A stretch of 64,000 nucleotides of DNA from Pseudomonas putida (lineage in GTDB: Bacteria; Pseudomonadota; Gammaproteobacteria; Pseudomonadales; Pseudomonadaceae), in NCBI RefSeq assembly GCF_002741075.1, contig NZ_CP016634.1:2898501-2962500 (forward strand). Direction: 5' to 3'. This document shows positions 5,570 to 49,464 of the stretch, piece by piece (the first letter of the stretch is position 1; every line of letters starts with the position of its first letter). The position numbers and the translations under genes are program-made. The notes beneath the pieces were generated by a model that was not told where the DNA came from, searched no databases, and saw only the letters and a program-made list of their open reading frames with translations.

Positions 5570-6598
5570 TCAGCGCACTGGAGGCGCGTACTGGATGCCG
5601 CCGTTGTTCCACAGGGCGTTCATGCCACGATCGATCTTCAGGTCAGTGCTTTGGCCCAGGTTCTTCTCGAACACTTCGCCGTAGTTACCGACCTGCTTGA
5701 CGATCTGCACCACCCAGTCCTTGGGCAGCTTCAGGTCCTTGCCATACTCGCCGTCGGCACCGAGCAGGCGGGCGACGTCGGGGTTCTTGGTGGACTTGGC
5801 CTCGGCCTCGACATTCTTCGAGGTGATGCCTGCCTCTTCGGCGTTGAGCATGGCGAACAGGGTCCACTTGACGATGCTGAACCACTCCTCGTCCCCCTTA
5901 CGCACGACCGGGCCCAGAGGCTCCTTCGAGATGGTTTCCGGCAGCACCACGTACTCGCTTGGCGCGGCCAGCTTGGAGCGCTGGGCGAACAACTGCGATT
6001 TGTCGGAGGTCAGTACGTCGCAACGGCCCGATTCCAGCGACTTGGCGCTTTCATCGGAGGTGTCGAAGGTGATTGGGGTGTACTTCAGGCCATTGGCGCG
6101 GAAGAAGTCGGAAACGTTCAGCTCGGTGGTGGTACCGGCCTGGATGCAGATGGTCGCGCCATCGAGCTCCTTGGCGCTGGAAACGCCCAGCTTCTTGTTG
6201 ACCAGGAAACCGACGCCGTCGTAGTAGGTGACCCCGGCGAACACCAGGCCCATGCCGGCATCACGCGAGCTGGTCCAGGTGGTGTTGCGCGACAGGACGT
6301 CGACTTCACCCGATTGCAGTGCCGTGAAGCGCTCTTTGGCGTTGAGCTGGCTGAACTTGACCTTGGTCGCGTCGCCGAAGACGGCAGCGGCCACTGCGCG
6401 GCACACATCGGCGTCGATACCGACGATCTTGCCGGTGCTGTCCGGTACCGAGAAGCCCGGCAGGCCGTCACTCACGCCACACTGGACGAAGCCCTTCTTC
6501 TTTACCGCATCAAGCGTAGCGCCAGCGTGGGCGAAGCTGGTGGCACCCAGCGCAGCGGCAGCGGTCAGGACTGCCAGGGTGGTTTTCAACATCTTCAT
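5570..6598 (-). CDS. aapJ: General L-amino acid-binding periplasmic protein AapJ
   Basis: This is the 342-residue solute-binding protein of the Aap importer. A Sec signal peptide with cleavage after SFAHA (about residue 26) is followed by an SBP family-3 fold; the GFSVPDSTGKIVGIDADVCR region is characteristic of AapJ/BztA. It is the first gene of the operon, with GGAGG just upstream of the ATG at 6598, and is separated from aapQ by a strong hairpin. Confidence 0.95.
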   Translation of the reverse strand: MKMLKTTLAVLTAAAALGATSFAHAGATLDAVKKKGFVQCGVSDGLPGFSVPDSTGKIVGIDADVCRAVAAAVFGDATKVKFSQLNAKERFTALQSGEVDVLSRNTTWTSSRDAGMGLVFAGVTYYDGVGFLVNKKLGVSSAKELDGATICIQAGTTTELNVSDFFRANGLKYTPITFDTSDESAKSLESGRCDVLTSDKSQLFAQRSKLAAPSEYVVLPETISKEPLGPVVRKGDEEWFSIVKWTLFAMLNAEEAGITSKNVEAEAKSTKNPDVARLLGADGEYGKDLKLPKDWVVQIVKQVGNYGEVFEKNLGQSTDLKIDRGMNALWNNGGIQYAPPVR

Positions 6599-7592
<994 letters not shown>

Positions 7593-36914: not shown

Positions 36915-38354
36915 TTACACCTTCTCGTCGAACGCCTGCCAGCCGCCGCCCAACGCCTTGTACAGCCCCACCAATGCCTGGGAGACGGCAGCCGAACTGT
37001 CGATCCACTGCTCCTCGCTGGCCAGCAGCGCACTCTGCACGGTCAGCACATTGAGAAAGTCCACTGCCCCTTCCACGTACTGGCGCTGGGCGGTCTCCAG
37101 CGCGACGCGGTTCTGCTTCACCGCCTCGGCCAGATGATCCCGGCGCAGTTGGCTGGCGTTGTACAGACGCAGCACATCGTCGATCTCATGCCACGCGCCC
37201 AGCACCACCTTGCGGTAGTTGAGCGCCGCCTCCTGCTGTTGCGCCTCGCGCAGTTCGAGCGTGCCCTTCAAGCGCCCGCCCTCGAAGATCGGCAATGACA
37301 ATTGCGGGCCGAAGGCGAAGCGCCGGGCGTCCCACGCACCGAAATCTGACAGCTGCATGGCCTGGAAACCGACACTGCCAGACAGCCGAATACTCGGGTA
37401 GAAGTCGGCCTTGGCCACGCCGATGCTGGCGGTGGCCGCATGCAGTCGCGCCTCGGCCTGGCGGATGTCGGGGCGGCGTTCGGCGAGTTCCGACGGCAGG
37501 CCGATGGCAAAGCGCTGCTGCGGCGTCGGCAACTCGCCGGGCGCCAGCAACTCGCTTTGCAGGCTGCGCGGCGGTTCAGCGACGAGCAGGCTCAGGGCAT
37601 TGATCAGATCGTCGCGCCGTGCCTCCAGCGTGGGCAGACGTGCCTCGATCGACGCCACCTGGGCGCTGGCCTGGGCCACGTCCAAGCGCGTGGCGACGCC
37701 CTCGGCCTGGCGATCCTCAGAGAGCTTGAGGCTATGCCGGGCGACCTTGAGGTTGTCCTGGGTGACCTCCAGGGTGTGTTGCACGGCGCGCAACTGGATG
37801 TAGTCACCGGCCGTCTCGGACAACAGCGCCAGAAGCACACCGCGTCGGTCGTTCTCGGCCACCGCCACCGAGGCATCGGCCGCCTCGACCTGACGACGCA
37901 CCCGCCCCCAGAGGTCCAGTTCCCACCCTGCCACCAGGTCGCCCTGCCACAGGTTGAAGGCGGATTTGCCCGCCTTGCCGGATGGGTCGCTCAGGCCCTC
38001 GGCGCTATTGCGGGCGCGACTGTAGCCGGCATTCACGTCCACCGAGGGCACCTCGTCGGCCGCCACGGTGCTGCGCAGGGCGCGGCTTTGCAGCAGGCGC
38101 GCGCTGGCCATCTGCAGGTCCAGGTTACGTTCGGCAACGCGCTGGATCAGCGCGCTCAGGCGTGCATCGTGAAAGCTGTCCCACCAACGCAGTTCCAACG
38201 GCTCTGCGGTCGGCTGACTCGCCGCCGCCTCGCCTTGCACCTGGCTCCAGGCCTGAGGTGCCTGGCTGTCCGGGCGCTGGAAGTCCGGCCCAAGGGTGCA
38301 GCCGGCGAGCAGCACGGCCAACAGCAGAGGGCTTATGCGTGTTGCCGGTTTCAT
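36915..38354 (-). CDS. NodT-family outer-membrane efflux lipoprotein
   Basis: A 479-residue TolC/OprM-like trimeric outer-membrane channel. A lipoprotein signal (LLAVLLAGC, Cys about residue 19) and two OEP repeats with long coiled-coil helices. It pairs with the EmrA- and EmrB-like genes upstream; its ATG overlaps the stop of the EmrA-like gene (ATGA). Together they form a tripartite drug or organic-anion exporter; the substrate is unknown. Confidence 0.92.
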   Translation of the reverse strand: MKPATRISPLLLAVLLAGCTLGPDFQRPDSQAPQAWSQVQGEAAASQPTAEPLELRWWDSFHDARLSALIQRVAERNLDLQMASARLLQSRALRSTVAADEVPSVDVNAGYSRARNSAEGLSDPSGKAGKSAFNLWQGDLVAGWELDLWGRVRRQVEAADASVAVAENDRRGVLLALLSETAGDYIQLRAVQHTLEVTQDNLKVARHSLKLSEDRQAEGVATRLDVAQASAQVASIEARLPTLEARRDDLINALSLLVAEPPRSLQSELLAPGELPTPQQRFAIGLPSELAERRPDIRQAEARLHAATASIGVAKADFYPSIRLSGSVGFQAMQLSDFGAWDARRFAFGPQLSLPIFEGGRLKGTLELREAQQQEAALNYRKVVLGAWHEIDDVLRLYNASQLRRDHLAEAVKQNRVALETAQRQYVEGAVDFLNVLTVQSALLASEEQWIDSSAAVSQALVGLYKALGGGWQAFDEKV

Positions 38355-39412
38355 CGCGCGCTCACCTCTTTGCCGTCGAGGGGGTCACCGTGGGTGTCGA
38401 TGGTCGCCACCACCGACATGCCCACACGCAAGCGCTCGAGCAGCGGCTGGCCATCGTCGAAGACGATCTTCACCGGAATCCGTTGCACGACCTTGGTGAA
38501 GTTGCCGGTGGCGTTGTCCGGTTTGACCGCGGCGAAGGTAACCCCGGTGGCCGGGGCGATGCTCTGCACATGGCCGTGCAGTGTCTCGCCGGAGAAGGTG
38601 TCGACGCTGATGCTCACCGACTGCCCCGGTTGTACATGAGTGAGCTGGGTTTCCTGAAAGTTGCCCACCACGTAGGCCTGCTGCAGCGGCACCACCGACA
38701 GCAGACGCGCCCCCGGATTGACGTAGGCGCCAATGCGCAGGGCGCGCTCGCCGACCATGCCGTCCACCGGCGCGGTGATGCGGGTGTAGGAGAGATCGAG
38801 CTGGGCTTTTTCAACGCCCGCCTCGGCGCGCTTGAGCTGGCCCTCGGCGCTGGCCACCTGGGCGGTGAGAATGTCCACCTGCTTGCGCGTGGCGACCAAC
38901 GCCGCCTGGGCATTGGCCAGTCGTGCCCGGGCCTGGTCGACACGGCTGCGCGCCTGCTGGGCGTTCTGCACGGTGCCGGCGCCTTGCTCGGCCAGGCGGC
39001 TGTAACGGGTCACCTCGTGATCAGCGAAGGCCATTTCGGCCTGGGCTGCCCGCACGGCCGCTTCGGCCTGGGCGATCAACGATGCCTGGCGCTCCAACGT
39101 GGCGCGCGCATCGGCGCTTTGCGCCTTGGCCACCAGCAATTGCGCCTGGGCGGCGTCGAGGGCTGCGCGGTAGTCGCGGTCATCGATGGTCGCCAGCAAC
39201 TGGCCGGCGCTCACCTGCTGGTTGTCCTCGACCAGCACCTCCTTGATGAAGCCAGGAACCTTGGGCGCGACCACAGTGTAGTCGGCGGTCACATAGGCAT
39301 CGTTGGTGCTTTGCTGGTGGTCGCTGCCCAGCATCCAGGGGGTCACCAGCGCAGCGAGCACGGCCAGGCCGAGCACCGAGCCGATCACGAGGGTCTTGCG
39401 GTTGTTGGTCAT
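38351..39412 (-). CDS. HlyD/EmrA-family periplasmic adaptor
   Basis: A 353-residue membrane fusion protein: N-terminal membrane helix (about residues 8-28), biotinyl-lipoyl halves (VVAPKVPGFIKEVLV; RITAPVDGMVGERALRIG), an alpha-hairpin rich in Ala/Gln, and a beta-barrel. It bridges the MFS pump and the NodT channel encoded on either side. Confidence 0.93.
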   Translation of the reverse strand: MTNNRKTLVIGSVLGLAVLAALVTPWMLGSDHQQSTNDAYVTADYTVVAPKVPGFIKEVLVEDNQQVSAGQLLATIDDRDYRAALDAAQAQLLVAKAQSADARATLERQASLIAQAEAAVRAAQAEMAFADHEVTRYSRLAEQGAGTVQNAQQARSRVDQARARLANAQAALVATRKQVDILTAQVASAEGQLKRAEAGVEKAQLDLSYTRITAPVDGMVGERALRIGAYVNPGARLLSVVPLQQAYVVGNFQETQLTHVQPGQSVSISVDTFSGETLHGHVQSIAPATGVTFAAVKPDNATGNFTKVVQRIPVKIVFDDGQPLLERLRVGMSVVATIDTHGDPLDGKEVSAR

Positions 39413-39440: not shown

Positions 39441-40982
39441 TCATGCCACCGCGCGCGGTGGGTAGATCCGGGTAGGCACGAAAGGAATCAGGCAAATCAG
39501 GGCCACGGCGACGCCGGCCATGACCCAATACAGGTCGGCGGACGTCAGCACTTGGGCTTGCTCGTGGAGGCGCCGGGCCAGGCCTGCGGCCTGGTCATCG
39601 ACCAGGGGCGCGTTGCCCAGGCTGTCCACCAGGTGGTTGGAATGAAAATGCCGGCGCACGGTGCCCAGAGCGTCCAGCAGGCCGGTGGCGATCACCGAGG
39701 ACAGGCCCTTGACGGTGTTGAACCAGCTCGATGCAAAGGGGCCTTCCTGGGGCGTCATACCGTTGGTCGAGAGCATCAGCAACGGCAGTACCGACATCGG
39801 CTGGCCGAACACCTGCAGCAAGTAGAAGGGGTAGAAGTCGCCGCGGATCCACTGCGAGGTCAGCAGGCTGCTACCTACGCACGAGGCCGCCAGCATCCCC
39901 AGGCCCAGCGCCAGCACCCAGCGGCAGTCCACCGCGCGGATGTTGCACAGCGCCGCCGTGAGCGGCAGGGCGATCAATTGCGGCATGGCCACCAGCATCA
40001 TCAACGGGCTTGTCTGCGCCGGGCGATAGCCCTGGATCTGCGCGAGATAGGCCGACGGGATGCTGCCCACACCCGACAGCACGATCAGCACGCCCGCCAG
40101 GGTCACCAAGGCAAAACTCAGGTTGCGCCGCGACAGCAAGCGCAACTGGAAGAACGGCAATGGCTCGGACCATTCGTTGTACATGAACAGCACCAGCAGC
40201 AGCACGCCAGCGCCGAGCAGCCAGCAGATCAGCGGTGAGTCGAACCAGCCCCAGCGATCGCCCAGGGACAGGCCCAGAACGATGCAACTGATAGCCGGCA
40301 GGCCGAGCACCATCCCACGCCAGTCGAACTGCTTGAAGCGTTCCAGGCGCAGTGGGTCCTGGGGCAGGCCCCAGCCCACGCAGAACATGGCCAGGCCCGA
40401 GGGCAGGATGATCTGCCAGAACGCCCACTGCCAGCCGACATACTCCGTCCACAGGCCCGCCAGAGGTGTGCCGAGGTTGGGACCGAACGTGGCGGTCAGG
40501 GCATAGCAGGCCAGGCCATAGATCTTGATGCCCGGAGGCAGAAAACGCAGCGCTACGGTCATCAGCATCGGCGGCAAGGCCCCCGAGGCAAGGCCCTGGA
40601 CGATGCGCAGCAGCATCAGGCTGTGCAGGTTGGGAGCGAAGGGCTGGACCAGGCCCAACACGGCGAACAGCCCGATGGCATAGATCGTGAAGCGGCGCAG
40701 GGAGAAGGTGCCGGCCATCCAGGGCGCGAAGGCCATCGCCGAGACCGACGCGGCCGAATACACCGCCAGCAGCCAGGCGCCCTCGTCGGCGCCGATGCCC
40801 ATGGCGCCGCGGATATCGGCCAGGGAAATCTTCGTCACTGCCTCGTTCAGACCCGCGCAGAGCACCGCCAGCAGCACGCCGAACAGCCCGACCACCACCC
40901 GCAGGCCAAACGCCGTCTGGACCGGTGCGGCCGGTGCAGGCGCAGCGGCGGGCACTGCGAGGGGCGTGGACAGGGAACTCAT
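39441..40982 (-). CDS. DHA2-family MFS drug transporter (EmrB-like)
   Basis: A 513-residue, 14-helix proton-coupled exporter of the DHA2/EmrB type, first gene of the three-gene efflux operon. The N-terminus is a cytosolic Ala/Pro-rich tail (about residues 1-25). A perfect LysR-type box lies 90 bp upstream of its start, identical to one in front of the lysR gene at 41967-42875. Confidence 0.92.
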   Translation of the reverse strand: MSSLSTPLAVPAAAPAPAAPVQTAFGLRVVVGLFGVLLAVLCAGLNEAVTKISLADIRGAMGIGADEGAWLLAVYSAASVSAMAFAPWMAGTFSLRRFTIYAIGLFAVLGLVQPFAPNLHSLMLLRIVQGLASGALPPMLMTVALRFLPPGIKIYGLACYALTATFGPNLGTPLAGLWTEYVGWQWAFWQIILPSGLAMFCVGWGLPQDPLRLERFKQFDWRGMVLGLPAISCIVLGLSLGDRWGWFDSPLICWLLGAGVLLLVLFMYNEWSEPLPFFQLRLLSRRNLSFALVTLAGVLIVLSGVGSIPSAYLAQIQGYRPAQTSPLMMLVAMPQLIALPLTAALCNIRAVDCRWVLALGLGMLAASCVGSSLLTSQWIRGDFYPFYLLQVFGQPMSVLPLLMLSTNGMTPQEGPFASSWFNTVKGLSSVIATGLLDALGTVRRHFHSNHLVDSLGNAPLVDDQAAGLARRLHEQAQVLTSADLYWVMAGVAVALICLIPFVPTRIYPPRAVA

Positions 40983-41071
40983 GGACAGACATCTCCAGCA
41001 ACAATTTGAGGCAGGAGGAAAGTCTAAAAAGGTCGAATGCTGACGAAAACTGACTTATTGGCAGTTTTATG

Positions 41072-41086
41072 TTGCGTCTGGCGCAA
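41072..41086. promoter_or_regulatory. LysR-type operator upstream of the EmrB-like operon
   Basis: TTGCG-TCTGG-CGCAA: a perfect 5-bp inverted repeat with a 5-base spacer and the T-N11-A pattern of LysR boxes. It lies 90-104 bp upstream of the operon start. The identical 15-mer (16 including the next T) occurs at 42928-42942. Confidence 0.7.
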
Positions 41087-41113
41087 TCCATCCCCGCGCC
41101 CACCTGTCACCGC

Positions 41114-41937
41114 AGCCCCCTATGGGTTTACTCGCGAATCAGCCAACGCGTTGAATGGCACGGGCTTCGCCCGTGTTCGCGGGTGAACCCGCTCCCACAG
41201 GGGGGCTGCGTGGCACTCGGTACGCATAACGCGTTTTTGTGGGAGCGGGTTTACCCGCGAATCAGCCAACGCAGTGAATGGCACGGGCTGCGCCCGTGTT
41301 CGCGGGTGAACCCGCTCCCACAGGGGGGCTGCGTGCACACCCGGCTACGCATAACGCGTTTTTGTGGGAGCGGGTTTACCCGCGAATCAGCCAACGCAGT
41401 GAATGGCACGGGCTTCGCCCGTGTTCGCGGGTGAACCCGCTCCCACAGGGGGGCTGCGTGCACACCCGGCTACGCATAACGCGTTTTTGTGGGAGCGGGT
41501 TTACCCGCGAATCAGCCAACGCAGTGAATGGCACGGGCTGCGCCCGTGTTCGCGGGTGAACCCGCTCCCACAGGGGGGGCTGCGTGCACACCCGGCTACG
41601 CATAACGCGCTTTTGTGGGAGCGGGTTTACCCGCGAATCAGCCAATGCGGTGTATGGCACGGGCTTCGCCCGTGTTCGCGGGTGAACCCGCTCCCACAGG
41701 GGAGCTGCGTGGCACACCCGGCTACGCATAACGCGTTTTTGTGGGAGCGGGTTTACCCGCGAATCAGCCAACGCAGTGAATGGCACGGGCTGCGCCCGTG
41801 TTCGCGGGTGAACCCGCTCCCACAGGGGGGCTGCGTGCACACCCGGCTACGCATAACGCGCTTTTGTGGGAGCGGGTTTACCCGCGAATCAGCCAACGCA
41901 GTGAATGGCACGGGCTGCGCCCGTGTTCGCGGGTTCG
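41114..41937. repeat. Tandem array of seven ~125-bp REP-pair units
   Basis: Units begin at about 41114 (degenerate), 41239, 41364, 41489, 41615, 41741 and 41866; spacing is 125 or 126 bp. Each has a forward REP (GTGGGAGCGGGTTTACCCGC), a spacer, a small hairpin (CGGGC-T[T/G]C-GCCCG), a reverse REP (TTCGCGGGTGAACCCGCTCC) and a second spacer ending CGCATAACGCG. The loop base alternates T,G,T,G,T,G,G along the array. The last unit is truncated. Reading frames here are repeats read as protein and are not genes. Confidence 0.95.
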
Positions 41938-41966
41938 GTGCTTCGGTTTCTCCGCGAGAGGCCCCG

Positions 41967-42875
41967 TCACGGGTCGACGCTGCAACAGGCCTTGAGCGTC
42001 TGGCGCAGCCAACGATGCGCCGGATCGTTCTGAAAGCGCGGGTGCCAGGCCTGCATGACGGTCACCTGTTCCAGCGGCAATGGGATCCGGAACGAGCGCA
42101 GCGGCAGGCCCAGTTTGTTCACGCTGTTGAGGATGTTGGCTGGCATCGGCAGGATCAGATCCGAATCAGGCAGCGAGAACATCGCTGAATGAAAACTCGG
42201 GGTGATCAGCGCCACACGCCGCTGAGCCTTGAAGTTGGCCAGTTCCACATCGATCGGCCCGTTGGCCCGGCCGCGTCGCGACACACTGATCTGCGGGTAG
42301 GCGGCAAAACACTCCGGGGTGATCTCGGCGTCGAAGATCGGATGGTCACGGCGCGCCAGGCCGATGTACTCGGTGTGAAACAGGCTCTGCACCTTGATCT
42401 CCGGCCCGAACTCCACGGTCGAGCTGATGATCAAGTCAGTGCGCCCGTCGCGCAGCACGCTGTCGTCGTCGCCACCCGGGCTCTCCGGCACGAACCTGAG
42501 CACCGTGCGTGGCGCTTGCTCGTGCATCATGCGCAACAGCTGGGCCCCATACAGGGCAATGAACAGGTCGTTGGTGCGGATGTTGAAAGCCCGCTCCAGG
42601 CTCGGCAGGTCCACATTGTCGCCACTGCGAAACACTTGCCCGGCCTGCTCCACCAGGGCCGACACCTGTTCGCGCAGGGCCAATGCCCGAGGGGTGGGCA
42701 CCAAACCCCGGCCTGCGCGCACCAGGATCGGGTCGCCCAACGCATCGCGGATCCGCCCCAAGGTGCGGCTCATGGCCGCCGGACTCAGGTTCATGCGCTG
42801 CGCCGCGCCGACCACACTGCCCTCATCGAGCAGGGCATCGAGGGCGACGAGCAGGTTCATATCGGGCAATTGCAT
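41967..42875 (-). CDS. LysR-family transcriptional regulator (next to EmrAB-like efflux operon)
   Basis: A 302-residue LTTR of the NodD/NahR subgroup: N-terminal winged helix (about residues 5-65, EGSVVGAAQRMNLSPAAMSRTL) and an effector-binding domain. It is read in the same direction as the efflux operon but is separated from it by the REP array. Matching LysR boxes in front of this gene and of the efflux operon suggest it controls both. Confidence 0.92.
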   Translation of the reverse strand: MQLPDMNLLVALDALLDEGSVVGAAQRMNLSPAAMSRTLGRIRDALGDPILVRAGRGLVPTPRALALREQVSALVEQAGQVFRSGDNVDLPSLERAFNIRTNDLFIALYGAQLLRMMHEQAPRTVLRFVPESPGGDDDSVLRDGRTDLIISSTVEFGPEIKVQSLFHTEYIGLARRDHPIFDAEITPECFAAYPQISVSRRGRANGPIDVELANFKAQRRVALITPSFHSAMFSLPDSDLILPMPANILNSVNKLGLPLRSFRIPLPLEQVTVMQAWHPRFQNDPAHRWLRQTLKACCSVDP

Positions 42876-42927
42876 GGGCCGTTTTCCGTGACAGCTGTGG
42901 GAAATGACATCTTATCAGGCCGGATGA

Positions 42928-42942
42928 TTGCGTCTGGCGCAA
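42928..42942. promoter_or_regulatory. LysR-type operator upstream of lysR and the universal stress gene
   Basis: The same perfect TTGCG-TCTGG-CGCAA as at 41072, located 53-67 bp upstream of the lysR start on the minus strand and about 103 bp upstream of the universal stress protein gene on the plus strand. It fits autoregulation. Confidence 0.7.
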
Positions 42943-43044
42943 TGTCGCCGTGCGTGGCGGGCCATTTATCCAGGTCGGGGGAACGATCGAAAATGGTGCG
43001 AACAGCTATCCGCGAAAAGCCGCCACCGAACCGAAGGAATACTC

Positions 43045-43494
43045 ATGCCCCGCCCGGTCCTGATCGCCATCGACGCCTCCTCCGCCGCCAGCGCCCTGCT
43101 CGACCTCGCCCAGCGCTATTGCAGGCCCGACGAGCACGAGTTGCACGTGCTGCTGGCCATCGACTCGACCTTCGCCGTGCACGACCACCCGACGACCTAC
43201 ACCAAACAGGAGCAGCAGGAGTACCCGGCCGCCTGCGAAGAACAGCACCTGGCCGACCAGGCCGTGGCCAGGGCCGTGAGTGCATTGCGCGACGCCGGCT
43301 TCGGCAGCCACGGCTGCATGGTCGCCGCCGAACCGGTCGAGGCCATCGTCGGCAAGGCTCAGGCGCTGGACTGCGAACTGATCATCATGGGCCACCGCCA
43401 CCTGTCGCGGCTGGGGCGACTGCTGGATCCGTCGATCAGCGCCAAGGTGATCGATCGGGTGCAGATTCCGGTGTTGGTGGGGGCGGCGGGATAA
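43045..43494 (+). CDS. Universal stress protein (UspA family)
   Basis: A 149-residue single-domain Usp. The N-terminus (VLIAIDASSAASALLDLA) and C-terminal MGHRHLSRLGRLLDPSISAKV are characteristic; the latter departs from the consensus ATP-binding G-x2-G-x9-G(S/T), so nucleotide binding is uncertain. The start at 43045 gives the family N-terminus. It is divergent from lysR with one LysR box between. Confidence 0.9.
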   Translation: MPRPVLIAIDASSAASALLDLAQRYCRPDEHELHVLLAIDSTFAVHDHPTTYTKQEQQEYPAACEEQHLADQAVARAVSALRDAGFGSHGCMVAAEPVEAIVGKAQALDCELIIMGHRHLSRLGRLLDPSISAKVIDRVQIPVLVGAAG

Positions 43495-43574: not shown

Positions 43575-44435
43575 TCAGCCCTCGCTCGGCTTGACCACCA
43601 CCGTGCAGGTCGTCCCCGCCGCCAGCAAAAAGCCTTCCGGCACTTCATCGATGTGAATGCGCACCGGCACCCGCTGGGCCAGGCGCACCCAGTTGAACGT
43701 CGGGTTCACATCGGCGATCAGCTCGCGGCTCTGCGGGTTGTCGCGGTCGTAGATACCGCGGGCGATGCTCTCCACATGCCCCTTGATGCGCTCGCCGCTC
43801 ATCATCTGCAGCTCGGCCTGGTCGCCCACCTTCACGTGGGGCAGCTTGGTCTCCTCGAAGAAGCCATACACCCAGAACGAATTTTCATCCACCACCGCCA
43901 TCACCGCTTCGCCGGTGCGGGCGTAGTCGCCCTTGTGGATGTTCAGGTTGGTCACATAGCCATCGACCGTGGCGATGATCCGCGTGCGCTTGAGGTTGAG
44001 CTCGGCGGCCGCCAGCTGGGCCTGAGCCTGCTGATAGTCGGCCAGCGCAGAGCTTGCGATATTGCTGGCGTCGTCACGGTTTTCCTTGGAGATCACCAGG
44101 TTGTCCAGGTCGGCGCGGCGCTTGGCATTGACCTTGCGCATCTCCCAGGTGGCCTTGCGCGAGGCGACCAGGGCCCTGGCCTGGTCCACCGCCAGTTGGT
44201 AATGCTCGGGGTCGATCTGGATCAGCAGGTCGCCCTTCTTCACCCGCTGGTTGTCCTTGACCGGCACATCCACCACATAGCCCGGTACATCGGCGGCGAC
44301 GTTGATGATGTCGGCGCGCACCCGGCCATCGCGGGTCCAGGGGGTGGTCATGTAGTGCAGCCACAACTGGCGACCGATCACCACGGCACCCGCCAGCACC
44401 AGCAAGGTAGCGATCAGGCTGAAGAACTTTTTCAT
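43575..44435 (-). CDS. HlyD-family adaptor (AaeA-like)
   Basis: A 286-residue membrane fusion protein with an N-terminal membrane helix (about residues 5-23), lipoyl halves (INVAADVPGYVVDVPVKDNQ; ATVDGYVTNLNIHKGDY) and a short hairpin, as in E. coli AaeA. Last gene of an operon OMF-FUSC-DUF1656-HlyD. In E. coli, AaeAB exports hydroxylated aromatic carboxylic acids; similar substrates are likely here. Confidence 0.92.
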   Translation of the reverse strand: MKKFFSLIATLLVLAGAVVIGRQLWLHYMTTPWTRDGRVRADIINVAADVPGYVVDVPVKDNQRVKKGDLLIQIDPEHYQLAVDQARALVASRKATWEMRKVNAKRRADLDNLVISKENRDDASNIASSALADYQQAQAQLAAAELNLKRTRIIATVDGYVTNLNIHKGDYARTGEAVMAVVDENSFWVYGFFEETKLPHVKVGDQAELQMMSGERIKGHVESIARGIYDRDNPQSRELIADVNPTFNWVRLAQRVPVRIHIDEVPEGFLLAAGTTCTVVVKPSEG

Positions 44436-44445
44436 CGAAGGATTC

Positions 44446-44646
44446 TCACCAGTAGACAGACAGCGCCATGGCGCCGAAGAGGCAGATGAACAAGCACAGG
44501 CGCAGCAGCGCCGGGTGCCAGAAGAAGCGGTAACCGTCATGGCTTGCGATGAAGCGGTCCAGGCCCCAGGCCAGGCCGGCGGCGAACAGGAACATCAAGG
44601 TCATGGTGGGCATGTACACGCCATGGAAGGCGATTTCACGAGGCAT
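44446..44646 (-). CDS. DUF1656 small membrane protein (AaeX-like)
   Basis: A 66-residue protein with two membrane helices (about residues 14-31 and 45-64), of the AaeX/DUF1656 family that accompanies FUSC-type exporters. Its start overlaps the end of the FUSC gene by 11 bp; the HlyD gene follows by 10 bp. Function unknown; the family is consistently present with AaeA and AaeB. Confidence 0.9.
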   Translation of the reverse strand: MPREIAFHGVYMPTMTLMFLFAAGLAWGLDRFIASHDGYRFFWHPALLRLCLFICLFGAMALSVYW

Positions 44647-46813
44647 GGTGCAATCCTTTGGCCGGAGCCAGGGGCGACTTGGGGTCGAGCAGGGAGGTGC
44701 GGATGAAATGCAGGTAGCTCTGCACCCGGCGCAACACCGAGGTGTCGAAGTGCCGGGCGAAAGGTTCGTCAGTGGCCTGCACGCGGCTGATGGCGTGGTC
44801 AACCGCCACCAGCGCGCGTTCGTGGTTGCTGGCATTGGGCTGCAGGAACAACCTCGCCAAGGCCCGGCCCATCACCCGGATGGCCTGGCGCCAGGGCTGG
44901 CTTTCGGCATAGGCCGGGTGGATTGGCGCGCGCACCTGTTCTTTACGCAGCTCGATGATCGCGTGACCGATTTCCAACACCGTGAACATCCAACGCATCA
45001 GCTCGCTCTGCACCTGCGGCCTGCCGGCAGCCAGGCCGTAGGCTTGGTGCAGCAGGTCGCGGGTGCGGCTCTCGAAGGCCGAACCCAGCCCCCGTAGGCG
45101 ACCGGTGATGGCGAACAGCACTTGCTCGCGCAGGTCCTGCTCCAGACGGCTCCACAGCCAGCGGCTGTTCGGCGGCAGGATGATGGCCCCGGCGGCGGCG
45201 CAGACCAGCATGCCGATGACCATGCCAATGTAATCGTTGATGAACACGTAGGGGTCGTACACGGTCAGGTTGTTCGGCACCGAACCGATGGCGAAGAACA
45301 CCAGCAGGCCGATGCCGTAGCCGGCATAGGCCGGGCGCGAGGAAAGAAACGCGCCCAGCACGAACACCGGCGCCAACACCATGCACAGCAGCGGGAAGCC
45401 GTCGATCCAGGGGAAGACGAAGAAGGTCTCGAAGAAGCCGACGAAGGCCCCGATCATCGTGCCGCACGCCATCTGGAAGGACATGCGCTTGGGGTTCGGC
45501 GAGGCCGCCGACAAACCCACGGTGACCGTGGCGATCAGGGTCATCATGGCGCCGCTTGGCCAGTCGCTCAGCAGCCAGTAGCTGCCCAGCAGCAACAGCA
45601 CCGCCGAAGCACGCACGCCAGCGGCCAGCGACACCAGCCAGCTGGTCTGGGCCACGTAGGGCTCGTCCCACTGTTCGCGCTCGTGCTTGTGGGCAGCGAG
45701 CGAGGCGTGGGTCTGGGCGTAGCTGTACATCTCGTCGACGAAGCGGTACAGCAGCTCGAAGGCCGTGTGGAAGTCGAGCAGGTCCGATTCGCTGGGGTCG
45801 GTCTTGAGGTAGTCGGCGCGCAGGCCACGCACCTGGGCTTGCAGGCCTTCCTTGTAGGCCGCCAGCTCCAGGGTCAGGCGTAGCGCATCGGCGTCGGTCA
45901 GCGCGCGGCCCACATAGGGATCGAGCAGCTCGGCAAGGGTCGCCAGGCCCGGTTCGATGGCCCCGACGATCTGCAGCGGACCGCGGGCGCGCAGGCGCTC
46001 CAGCAGGCTGTGCAGGGCATTGAAGCGGGTGGTGATGGCCATGAACTCGCTGTTCATGCGCACCAACCGGCCCGAGCGCCTGCGCATGTGCGGGTCTTCG
46101 AAGGCCGTGACGTTGCGCAGGCTCTCCAGGCCCACGGCCTCGGCGATGAAGCGCACGTTGCTGCTTTCATAGCGGTCCGGCTGGCTGTCGCCACGCAGGG
46201 CCTCGACCACCACCCCGGCGAACACCCCAAAGCGCTGGTACAGGGCGTTGCGCATGGCAGCGCTGGCCGACTGGGGCAGGATCGCCGCGCTGACCAGGGT
46301 CGAGACCAGGATCCCCAGGGAGATCTCCAGCACGCGCCACACCGCTGCCATGAAGGCCTGGTCGGGGTGTTGCAGCACCGGCAGACCGATCATCGCCGCG
46401 GTGTAGCCAGCCAGCACGAAGCCATAGGCCTGGAAGGTGCGGTAGCGCATAGCGCCGGCCGAGCACAGGCCGACCCACAGGGCCAGGCTGGGCAGGAACA
46501 GCTCGGTGTTCTGCGGAAAGACGGCGACCAACGCGACCATCATCGCCGAGCCCGCCAAGGTGCCGAGCACCCGGTAGAAGCTCTTGGCGAACACATGCCC
46601 GCTCTGTGGTTGCATGACGATGAACACCGTGATCATCGCCGTGCGCGGTTGCGGCAACTCCAGGCGCATGGCCAGCCACAAAGTGATGAACGCTGCAGCC
46701 AGGACCTTGAAGATGTAGACCCAGGTCACCCCGTCAGTCCGCGCCCAGGCAAAGAAGCCCCGGCGCCATTCCAGGCTTTGCAGCCAACGCAGGGGCAGGC
46801 TCGATGTGCTCAT
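44636..46813 (-). CDS. FUSC-family exporter (AaeB-like, fusaric acid resistance type)
   Basis: A 725-residue inner-membrane protein with two sets of about five membrane helices separated by cytosolic regions, typical of AaeB/FusC. It works with the HlyD adaptor and DUF1656 protein downstream and the outer-membrane factor upstream; the operon is a self-contained tripartite pump. Its ATG overlaps the OMF stop (ATGA). Confidence 0.93.
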   Translation of the reverse strand: MSTSSLPLRWLQSLEWRRGFFAWARTDGVTWVYIFKVLAAAFITLWLAMRLELPQPRTAMITVFIVMQPQSGHVFAKSFYRVLGTLAGSAMMVALVAVFPQNTELFLPSLALWVGLCSAGAMRYRTFQAYGFVLAGYTAAMIGLPVLQHPDQAFMAAVWRVLEISLGILVSTLVSAAILPQSASAAMRNALYQRFGVFAGVVVEALRGDSQPDRYESSNVRFIAEAVGLESLRNVTAFEDPHMRRRSGRLVRMNSEFMAITTRFNALHSLLERLRARGPLQIVGAIEPGLATLAELLDPYVGRALTDADALRLTLELAAYKEGLQAQVRGLRADYLKTDPSESDLLDFHTAFELLYRFVDEMYSYAQTHASLAAHKHEREQWDEPYVAQTSWLVSLAAGVRASAVLLLLGSYWLLSDWPSGAMMTLIATVTVGLSAASPNPKRMSFQMACGTMIGAFVGFFETFFVFPWIDGFPLLCMVLAPVFVLGAFLSSRPAYAGYGIGLLVFFAIGSVPNNLTVYDPYVFINDYIGMVIGMLVCAAAGAIILPPNSRWLWSRLEQDLREQVLFAITGRLRGLGSAFESRTRDLLHQAYGLAAGRPQVQSELMRWMFTVLEIGHAIIELRKEQVRAPIHPAYAESQPWRQAIRVMGRALARLFLQPNASNHERALVAVDHAISRVQATDEPFARHFDTSVLRRVQSYLHFIRTSLLDPKSPLAPAKGLHHAS

Positions 46814-48336
46814 TCGGCGTGGCTCGGGGTGTCGAAGATGGCCAGCGTCGCAGGTGTCTTCGGCGCGGCCTGGCGTTGCTCGTCGGGTACGTCCTCACCG
46901 GCCTGCAACCCACCGCCAAGGGCGGTGACCAGCTCGGCATGGGCGCTCAGGCGTGCGGCCTGGACCTGCTGCTGGATCTGCTGCTGACGGAACAACAAGG
47001 TCTGGGCGTTGAGCACGTTCAGGTAATCGGTCAGCCCGCGCTGGAAAGCGACCATGGCGATGTCGTAGGTCTTCTGGGCGGCGGCCACGCTCTGGGCAGC
47101 GAAGTGCGCCTGCTCGTTCATCGACTCGCGGCGGATCAACTGGTCGGAGATGTTCTTCAGCGCGCCCACCACGGTCTGGTTGTAGCGCGCGACGGCCATG
47201 TCGTAGCCGGCGGAGGCCACGCCCAACTGCGAGCGCAGGCGCCCACCGTCGAAGATCGGCAGGCTGATGGCCGGGCCTACGTTGTAGTTGAACTTGCGCC
47301 CGGTCAGAAACTCCAGCGGGCCACCACCGGTGGCCATGAAGCCCAGGCTGCCGACCAGGTCGACGTTGGGGAAGAATCCCGCATGGGCCACATCGATGCC
47401 CCGGGCCTGGGCCGCCACCTGCCAGCGGCTGGCGACCACATCGGGACGCTGGCCGACCAGCTCGGCCGGCAGGTTCGATGGCAGCTTGAGCGGCGCACCG
47501 AGGGTCAGGGTGGGGCGCTGGATCTGCGCGCCCTCCCCCGGCCCCTTGCCAGCCAAGGCCGCCAACTGGTTGCGAGTCAGGGCGATTTCTTCGTTGAGGC
47601 TGTCGAGCTGACGGTGGGTCTCCGGCAGCGGGGCCTCGGCCTGGCTGACTTCGAAGTGCGTGCCAAGGCCGCTGTCGAGGCGGCGCTTGGCCAGGGCGAG
47701 GATCTGCTCTTGCTGCTCCAACTCGGCCTTGACGATATCGCGCTGGGCAAAATGCAGGCTCAGCTGGATATAGGTGCGCACCACGTTGTTCTGCAGCTCC
47801 AGCTGGGCTTGGCGGGCTTCGGCGACGCTCATGTGCGCCTGGTCCACGGCCTGCTCGCTGGCATTGCGCTCACGGCCCCAAAGGTCCAAGGCGTAGCTGA
47901 AACCGATGGCGGCGTTGTTGTCCCAGGTATTGGCACCGGACAGCGCGCCAGGGCCGTAGAACTGATCCTCCGGCCAGTTATGGCGCTTGAGAGTGGCCTG
48001 ACCGTTGACCTGGAGCTTTTCCGCCGACTCGATCACACCCGCCATGGACTTGGCCTGGCGCACCCGCGCCGCGGCCATGGCCAAGGTCGGGCTGCCGCTC
48101 TGGGCCTGCTCGACCCAGCGATCGAGCTGCGGGTCGCCATAGGCACGCCACCACTGCTGCGCCGGCCAATGGGCGTCGGTGGCAGCTTCGCGAATCGCGT
48201 CGTCGGTGGTCAGGGTATTGGCTTGCAGCGTCTTGCTTTGCGGGGCAATGCCCCAGGTTCCGATACAGCCGCTCAAGGTGAGGCTAAGGGCACAGGCACT
48301 GAGCGCATTCAGCGCTCTGATGATGCGACGCGGCAC
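46810..48336 (-). CDS. NodT-family outer-membrane efflux lipoprotein (Aae-like operon)
   Basis: A 508-residue OprM/TolC-type channel. The lipobox SLTLSGC (Cys about residue 24) and two OEP domains are seen. The start is a GTG at 48334-48336 with a weak ribosome-binding site; no ATG occurs before the lipobox. First gene of the operon, divergent from a LysR gene, with an inverted repeat in the gap. Confidence 0.92.
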   Translation of the reverse strand: MPRRIIRALNALSACALSLTLSGCIGTWGIAPQSKTLQANTLTTDDAIREAATDAHWPAQQWWRAYGDPQLDRWVEQAQSGSPTLAMAAARVRQAKSMAGVIESAEKLQVNGQATLKRHNWPEDQFYGPGALSGANTWDNNAAIGFSYALDLWGRERNASEQAVDQAHMSVAEARQAQLELQNNVVRTYIQLSLHFAQRDIVKAELEQQEQILALAKRRLDSGLGTHFEVSQAEAPLPETHRQLDSLNEEIALTRNQLAALAGKGPGEGAQIQRPTLTLGAPLKLPSNLPAELVGQRPDVVASRWQVAAQARGIDVAHAGFFPNVDLVGSLGFMATGGGPLEFLTGRKFNYNVGPAISLPIFDGGRLRSQLGVASAGYDMAVARYNQTVVGALKNISDQLIRRESMNEQAHFAAQSVAAAQKTYDIAMVAFQRGLTDYLNVLNAQTLLFRQQQIQQQVQAARLSAHAELVTALGGGLQAGEDVPDEQRQAAPKTPATLAIFDTPSHAE

Positions 48337-48516: not shown

Positions 48517-49464
48517 ATGGACACCCTGCAAAACATGCGTGCTTTCAGTTGCGTGGCCCAGCTCGGCAGCTTCACTGCCGCCGCGGCGCAACTGGATACG
48601 ACCACCGCGAACGTCTCGCGGGCGGTCTCCAACCTGGAAGCCCATCTGCAAACTCGGCTGCTCAATCGCACCACCCGGCGTATCGCCCTGACCGAGGCTG
48701 GCAAGCGTTACCTGATGCGCTGCGAGCAGATTCTGACCTTCGTCGAAGAAGCCGAGGCCGAGGCCAGCGATGCCCACGCCCGCCCGGCCGGGCAGTTGAA
48801 AGTGCATTCGATGACCGGTGTCGGCCAGCATTTCGTGGTCGATGCCATCAGCCGCTACCGCGAATCGCACCCGGACGTGACCTTCGACCTGACCATGGCC
48901 AACCGCGTGCCAGACCTGCTCGAAGAGGGTTATGACGTCTCCATCGTGCTGGCCAGCGAGCTGCCGGACTCCGGCTTCGTCTCCCAGCGCCTGGGCATCA
49001 CCTACAGCATCGTCTGCGCCTCGCCCGAGTACGTGGCCAAGCACGGCACCGCGCACAAGCCGGCCGACCTGCTCAAGCATTCCTGCCTGCGCATGGTCAG
49101 CCCGGTGATCCCGCTGGAGAAGTGGCTGTTCGACGGCCCGGAAGGCCAGGAGATGGTCAACATCACCACCTCGCCGTTCCAGGTGAACTCGGCCGACGCC
49201 ATGAAAACCGCGATCCGCAGCGGCATGGGCGTGGGCGTGCTGCCAATCTACTCGGCCATCGACGGCCTGCGCGACGGCAGCATCGTGCGGATCATGCCCG
49301 ACTACCGGCTGCAGGAGCTGAACCTCTATGCGATCTACCCTTCGCGTCAGTACCTGGATGCGAAGATCAAGACCTGGGTGGAGTACCTGCGCAATTCGCT
49401 GCCGGAGATCCTCGCGGCGCATGAAGCAGACCTCAAGACCCACGAGTTGCTGATCGCCAACTGA
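48517..49464 (+). CDS. LysR-family transcriptional regulator (AaeR-like position)
   Basis: A 315-residue LTTR: winged helix at about residues 5-65 (LGSFTAAAAQLDTTTANVSR), then an effector domain. Divergent from the FUSC efflux operon, the same arrangement as E. coli aaeR-aaeXAB, so it likely senses an aromatic acid and controls that pump. It is of a different LTTR subgroup (CrgA-like) from the LysR at 41967. Confidence 0.92.
   Translation: MDTLQNMRAFSCVAQLGSFTAAAAQLDTTTANVSRAVSNLEAHLQTRLLNRTTRRIALTEAGKRYLMRCEQILTFVEEAEAEASDAHARPAGQLKVHSMTGVGQHFVVDAISRYRESHPDVTFDLTMANRVPDLLEEGYDVSIVLASELPDSGFVSQRLGITYSIVCASPEYVAKHGTAHKPADLLKHSCLRMVSPVIPLEKWLFDGPEGQEMVNITTSPFQVNSADAMKTAIRSGMGVGVLPIYSAIDGLRDGSIVRIMPDYRLQELNLYAIYPSRQYLDAKIKTWVEYLRNSLPEILAAHEADLKTHELLIAN

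Follow-up and report, generated by a model that had tools for sequence, protein, structure and literature searches.

A conserved candidate LysR operator before lysR and an EmrAB-like efflux operon in Pseudomonas putida, with a possible link to usp

The recognition site of LysR-type activators is centred near position -65. MexT is an activator of this type that controls an efflux operon, although its pump belongs to the RND class and its operator sequence differs from the one considered here, and regulators of the DntR/NahR type control degradation genes and not efflux. The closest precedent for the present locus is the SalR-SalAB system of Rhizobium leguminosarum, in which a lysR gene lies upstream of an MFS adaptor/transporter pair that is induced by an aromatic acid, SalR, in the presence of salicylate, activating salAB from the salR-salA intergenic promoter, which depends on it (PMC4136779). 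In Pseudomonas putida, PP_1271-1273 have been linked to the export of p-hydroxybenzoate in strain S12 and to propionate tolerance in KT2440 (PMC7936288, PMC4495716); their overexpression raised tolerance and their deletion left propionate production about unchanged (PMC7936288), PP1271 stands out in an expression table from maize roots with values of 11.3 to 25.6 in four columns (PMC2375017), and the genes are also treated in PMC8314020 and PMC10521751. The passages of this literature that our search covered name no regulator or operator for PP_1271-1273, and a search on PP_1270 and PP_1269 returned no paper on these genes.

The pump, its predicted regulator and their neighbours

We have analysed a 64,000-nucleotide stretch of P. 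putida DNA (contig NZ_CP016634.1, positions 2,898,501 to 2,962,500), hereafter the window, to which coordinates refer unless another source is named. Three genes on its minus strand encode an EmrB-like MFS transporter (39441-40982; PF07690, TIGR00711 at 161.6 bits against a cut-off of 230.2, assignment aided by synteny), an EmrA-like periplasmic adaptor (38351-39412; HlyD_D23 and HlyD_3, TIGR00998 at 239.7 bits against 390.8) and an OprM/NodT-type outer-membrane factor (36915-38354; PF02321, TIGR01845 at 382.2 bits, exceeding its cut-off of 210.05). Transporter, adaptor and outer-membrane factor are thus adjacent and run in the same direction, as in a tripartite MFS efflux pump, and presumably form one transcript, but since the TIGR00711 and TIGR00998 scores fall under the curated cut-offs the pump can only be called EmrAB-like. 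The regulator gene (41967-42875, minus strand) encodes an N-terminal HTH_1 domain (PF00126, 52.2 bits, cut-off 26.6) and a C-terminal LysR substrate domain (PF03466, 46.8 bits, cut-off 28), as expected of a LysR-type protein. It lies upstream of the pump on the same strand, and only the universal stress protein gene, usp (43045-43494, plus strand, PF00582), is divergent; the view of the initial annotation that the direction of transcription hides the link between lysR and pump is therefore mistaken.

The solved chains nearest to LysR in a phmmer search are 5ae4 and 1utb, both named LysR-type regulatory protein (E about 5e-30), which we take to be DntR with salicylate as ligand; the similarity to the DntR/NahR type extends over residues 5-294 but is distant. 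Further relatives in the PDB are a PCP-degradation activator, MexT and LeuO. BsrA was considered as an identity for the regulator and rejected, for although NF050187 is the best NCBIfam match, its 142.4 bits are far below the cut-off of 480.

The cluster reads lysR (48517-49464), divergent fusaric-type operon, usp, lysR and pump. The second exporter operon (HlyD, FUSC and an outer-membrane gene, 43575-48336) with its own divergent LysR gene at 48517-49464 fits PP_1263-1266 and PP_1262, the latter being a LysR gene divergent from the fusaric-type efflux operon PP_1263-1266 (PMC5814926). A toxin-antitoxin pair has been placed at PP_1268-1267 (PMC7280312), and a YhaV/PrlF pair is found between the fusaric-type operon and usp at 6463-7316 of P. 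putida NBRC 14671 (L054), whereas the window leaves about 80 bp at this place and hence no room for it. Counting genes, usp would be PP_1269, lysR PP_1270 and the pump PP_1271-1273: the order of MFS transporter, adaptor and outer-membrane protein agrees, and the neighbourhood is the same in the window and L054, the match being one of gene order and not of KT2440 sequence. PA3135-PA3137 were entertained as P. aeruginosa counterparts, as a guess only, and are not adopted here.

A dyad before the pump and before lysR

The 15-mer TTGCGTCTGGCGCAA occurs at 41072-41086 and 42928-42942, exactly where the initial annotation placed it, and the identity of the two copies in fact extends to 16 nt, TTGCGTCTGGCGCAAT. 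On the minus strand, that of lysR and pump, the 15-mer reads TTGCGCCAGACGCAA. It is a dyad of the form TTGCG-N5-CGCAA with the T-N11-A spacing claimed earlier, but the symmetry described as perfect is only nearly so: the 5-bp arms are perfect, yet 6 of 7 pairs are complementary, positions 6 and 10 (T and G) failing to pair. These are the sole exact copies in the 5.85-Mb genome, and the objection that the 15-mer might lie at many unrelated loci, for which a genome scan had been proposed as a check, accordingly fails in this genome.

Whether the repetition is far beyond chance, as had been asserted, is less clear from this genome, even though only two exact copies exist. With up to two mismatches the window holds two matches, both of them the known copies, and its shuffled versions held 0.32 on average, with at least two in 6 of 100. 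Furthermore, the class TTGCG-N5-CGCAA occurs at 11 places in the genome against 9 for the backward-read control; being hardly enriched, it makes the single-genome statistics modest, so that the case must be made by conservation, and it gives no indication of a wide regulon. The consensus TTGCGTCTGACGCAA with up to two mismatches likewise finds 12 places in the genome, two of them those of the window, against 7 control matches. Eighteen further genomic candidates (L112-L121 and L192-L199) were checked, and none has a -10-like hexamer at the spacing of 44-46 nt that characterizes the pump promoter; neither does the site between lysR and usp in the window. Overlap with open reading frames was not used as a criterion here, most of the 18 places lying inside long mechanical ORFs, as do both window sites. 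Taken with the modest background of the dyad, the 18 places make the regulon look local.

The exact 15-mer was also tried as a genus-wide marker and discarded, since its presence in 32 of 298 genomes, against 57 (counted by eye) for the backward control, amounts to background; among 30 fetched matches from the genus 8 are at this locus, our own included, and 22 elsewhere. In only 7 of 80 loci (L042, L048, L050, L052, L066, L067 and the window) do both promoters contain the same 15-mer, whichever strand it is on. Judged by this comparison, the exact identity of the two window copies is partly luck, and the conserved part is the arms. A third, partial copy, GCGTCTGGCGCA, is present at 41996-42007 in the 3' coding end of lysR, where it probably reflects coding constraint and not an operator.

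Conservation was assessed in two sets of loci. A scan of species genomes gave 301 relatives of LysR, of which the best 80 loci were taken (81 with the window), and in a census of the genus 218 of 298 genomes gave a lysR match with an E value of 1e-70 or lower, 40 of these loci being fetched as a second set. An MFS gene is the next same-direction neighbour of lysR in 79 of the best 80 loci, and the pump adjoins lysR in 37 of the 40. When at most one arm mismatch is allowed, the first set has a site before lysR in 74 of 81 loci and before the pump in 62 of 80, with both sites in 60 of 80; control segments taken from the same loci reach this in 187 of 17,899 cases at 133 nt and in 254 of 18,000 at 190 nt. 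The counts over loci are not independent, because related promoters share ancestry. The arrangement of operators, lysR and pump is, as far as promoter comparison goes, ordinary in kind and kept in many Pseudomonas species. Two loci with other titles, L042 (Paucimonas MAG) and L049 (Pantoea sp.), carry a Pseudomonas-type locus with 84% LysR identity, and the titles may be wrong.

The dyads might in principle be bound by another regulator, either the second LysR encoded at 48517-49464 or a global factor, with the adjacency of lysR being incidental. Such a candidate is indeed at hand nearby, a site may be conserved for the sake of some other regulator, and the function of the dyads is a prediction. 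However, the site stays before the pump beside this very lysR over 62-98% LysR identity, and no copy with up to two mismatches was found at the FUSC-type operon or the second lysR in the window scan, for which reasons we regard this explanation as improbable.

Geometry of the pump promoter

In all, 117 pump promoters were examined (112 distinct records, since L152, L154, L156, L157 and L158 duplicate stretches of L070, L077, L072, L073 and L079 and distinct counts are 5 lower), which is part of the genus when compared with the 218 of 298 sampled genomes that have a lysR match. Every one of them carries a T-N11-A site, with no more than 4 of the 10 arm positions mismatched, 44-46 nt before a TAnnMT hexamer, as opposed to 103 of 5,850 random regions drawn from the same loci, and the spacing is exactly 45 nt in 116 and 46 nt in one. 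With at most two arm mismatches the count is 93 of 117 against 31 of 5,850 random regions, the arms having decayed in some clades (2 mismatches in 18, 3 in 23 and 4 in one of the 117). Several apparent misses of the pump site proved to be mis-anchored rows once promoters were anchored on the downstream block, and the same anchoring shows that diverged lineages have altered arms at a kept position. In the window the hexamer is TAGACT (41021-41026, minus strand), a putative -10 element 45 nt downstream of the dyad at 41072-41086. If the hexamer is taken as the -10 element, the centre of this candidate operator falls near -65 of the predicted pump start, which is the classical position of a LysR activator and which holds for the T-N11-A sites of all 117 promoters examined. 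The proposal that LysR is tied to the pump becomes by this comparison a well-supported prediction, based on a geometry that is fixed in every pump promoter examined and on the conserved site before lysR.

Between dyad and putative -10 element, near -35, lies the block GTCAGTTTTCG (41044-41054, minus strand), a candidate for the region of the activator site, the columns of which are 95-100% conserved in 76 promoters, in part by construction as these were themselves anchored on the block. In the same 76 promoters the information content per column is 1.89 and 1.62 bits in the dyad arms, 0.99 in the spacer, 0.44 in the 10-nt flank upstream and 1.28 over 65 nt downstream; L021 and L074 were left out of this profile as mis-anchored, and L064, L066 and L078 were not anchored.

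It is conceivable that LysR represses the pump and is relieved by an inducer instead of activating it. LysR-type proteins can repress, and insertions in PP_1262, the other LysR gene of the cluster, improved growth with p-coumaric acid (PMC5814926). On the other hand a centre near -65 is by the general rule activator geometry, and SalR regulates salAB positively (PMC4136779), and we therefore consider repression unlikely and activation the better reading.

The candidate pump operator at 41072-41086 is separated from the lysR stop by 880 bp, most of which is made up of a tandem array of 811 bp (41124-41934; 6.5 copies of a 125-bp unit) located between lysR and the pump promoter, which we take to be of the REP/BIME type. 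The initial annotation spoke of about 890 bp of repeats and so gave the repeats roughly the length of the whole gap. Searching with the same pattern, we find 12 REP cores in the lysR-pump gap of the window and at most 2 in that of each other locus. Throughout L001-L069 the best site is found 80-107 nt before the pump start across gaps of 103-685 nt, and in the window, with a gap of 987 nt, it is found at -104; as the site keeps within this range of the pump whatever the gap, the extra DNA lies upstream of the operator. On this evidence the array is a local insertion that left the pump promoter intact, and it may separate the lysR and pump transcripts. Other long gaps of 300-685 nt occur in L024, L059, L064 and L072, and these contain no more than 2 REP cores like those of the window. 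The notion that the repeated 15-mer arose by chance or as a by-product of REP expansion could appeal to the 6 shuffled windows in 100 mentioned above, but it is contradicted by conservation, the site being outside the array and present in relatives that have no REP core in the gap, and we give it practically no credence.

The lysR promoter and the usp-side module

The second dyad (42928-42942) precedes a putative lysR -10 element, TAAGAT (42909-42914, minus strand), by 13 nt, and at this spacing it overlaps the predicted lysR -35 region, an arrangement that would suit autorepression. Among the best 80 loci and the window, the distance from dyad end to a -10-like hexamer is 13 nt in 57 of 81, 12 nt in 3 and 14 nt in one, so that in 61 of 81 a candidate operator lies within or near the core promoter of lysR, as autoregulation would call for; in other clades it is 23 nt in 9 loci, 25 nt in 5, 34 nt in 2 and 35 nt in one (L074, a poor site), and near the dyad of 3 of these 81 loci no such hexamer was found. 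The distances cluster at 12-14, 23, 25 and 34 nt, in steps of about one helical turn.

On its other side the dyad is accompanied by the highly conserved element GATAAATGG (42962-42970, minus strand; CCATTTATC in the direction of usp), the ATAAATG of which faces usp. In the clade of the window, dyad and element form a rigid 28-nt module, all 84 detected modules having exactly this spacing although the search admitted 27-29 nt, and in 68 distinct modules the arms carry 1.81 and 1.69 bits per column and the spacer 1.06. In the first set usp is divergent from lysR in 77 of 81 loci and in the second in 10 of 40, as determined with five in-frame queries and with the same classes at a weaker cut-off; L074-L076 are without usp, and the contig of L009 ends too early to tell. 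Leaving out L178, L179 and L191, which have no pump neighbour, 83 of the 87 loci with usp carry the module (78 of 82 once duplicates are removed; it is missing from L038, L043, L068 and L078), as do none of the 30 loci without usp, L009 being set aside, an association that is suggestive only since the loci without usp are perhaps three independent cases. The latter loci tend to have another site, TTGCG-N6-TCAA starting at -40 before lysR, which with at most one mismatch occurs in 24 of 31 of them (L009 counted), as against 7 of the 87 loci that have usp and 9 of 6,050 shuffled sequences. Module and -40 site are both present in L079, L080, L158 (the L079 record) and L159, and neither was detected in L074-L076 at the thresholds used. 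By eye, the sequence that L160 and L161, which have no usp, share with L158 starts inside the usp-side dyad, the outer dyad arm and the ATAAATG element being gone and the -40 site kept.

Two simple ideas can be set aside on these grounds, namely that the site bears no relation to usp, given that the module follows the presence of usp, and that the site before lysR serves usp only, given that fluorescens-type loci without usp have a LysR-like site there. The retention of this LysR-like site is also in keeping with a third explanation, in which LysR controls lysR and pump only, usp is merely a neighbour and the 28-nt module is, for instance, an element of the lysR promoter; moreover GATAAATGG is, to the eye, unconvincing as a -10 element of usp. 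This explanation sits badly, however, with the distribution of the module over loci with and without usp, with a 28-nt spacing that is constant while the spacing to the lysR -10 element varies, and with the break in L160 and L161, which removes the usp-side sequence but spares the lysR-proximal site. We hold it to be possible, if somewhat doubtful. That the operator at 42928-42942 tracks usp is suggested and not proven by these observations, and the initial idea that usp belongs to the regulon, to which the behaviour of the module and the breakpoint seen by eye lend some substance while it stays a matter of inference, has in our opinion about an even chance of being right.

Proposed regulation and comparison with known systems

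We consider it likely, from the sequence comparisons taken together, that LysR activates the pump and regulates its own synthesis. The LysR protein (41967-42875) would bind both dyads and act as a classical activator at the pump, with its recognition site near -65 and a contact at the conserved block towards -35, such that the pump would be switched on when LysR senses an inducer, most likely a weak acid, aromatic or otherwise. At its own promoter the dyad over the -35 region would let LysR limit its own synthesis, and the same dyad at a fixed distance from the usp-facing element could plausibly bring usp into the regulon. The REP array would have been inserted later, between lysR and the promoter of the pump, leaving the control region of the pump intact.

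More tentatively, and with confidence just short of even, the locus may represent an undescribed regulon of many Pseudomonas, in which a LysR of the type that senses aromatics ties usp to an efflux pump for organic acids by way of three operator geometries, at about -65 of the pump, in the core promoter of lysR and in the 28-nt usp module, the distance on the lysR side stepping by about one helical turn and the operator on the usp side being gained and lost with usp. PP_1271-1273 are regarded as a tolerance factor in production work with P. putida (PMC7936288), and to this the locus now adds a candidate regulator, two candidate operators and a promoter geometry. Furthermore, organic acids are suggested as inducers, usp is predicted as an unexpected partner and the relatives without usp provide a natural control.

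Compared with SalR-SalAB the locus differs in gene order, the adaptor preceding the transporter in the former, and the passages of PMC4136779 on SalR-SalAB mention no outer-membrane gene, named operator or link to usp. BsrA (PA2121) resembles the present case in having a T-N11-A box and in binding its own upstream region by EMSA, but unlike the window site its motif is loosely conserved and it has multiple binding sites in the genome (PMC8407307). The same source names MexT-mexEF-oprN of P. aeruginosa, and MexT is itself among the PDB relatives of LysR. By analogy with SalR-SalAB and MexT, the kind of system proposed here is thus a familiar one.
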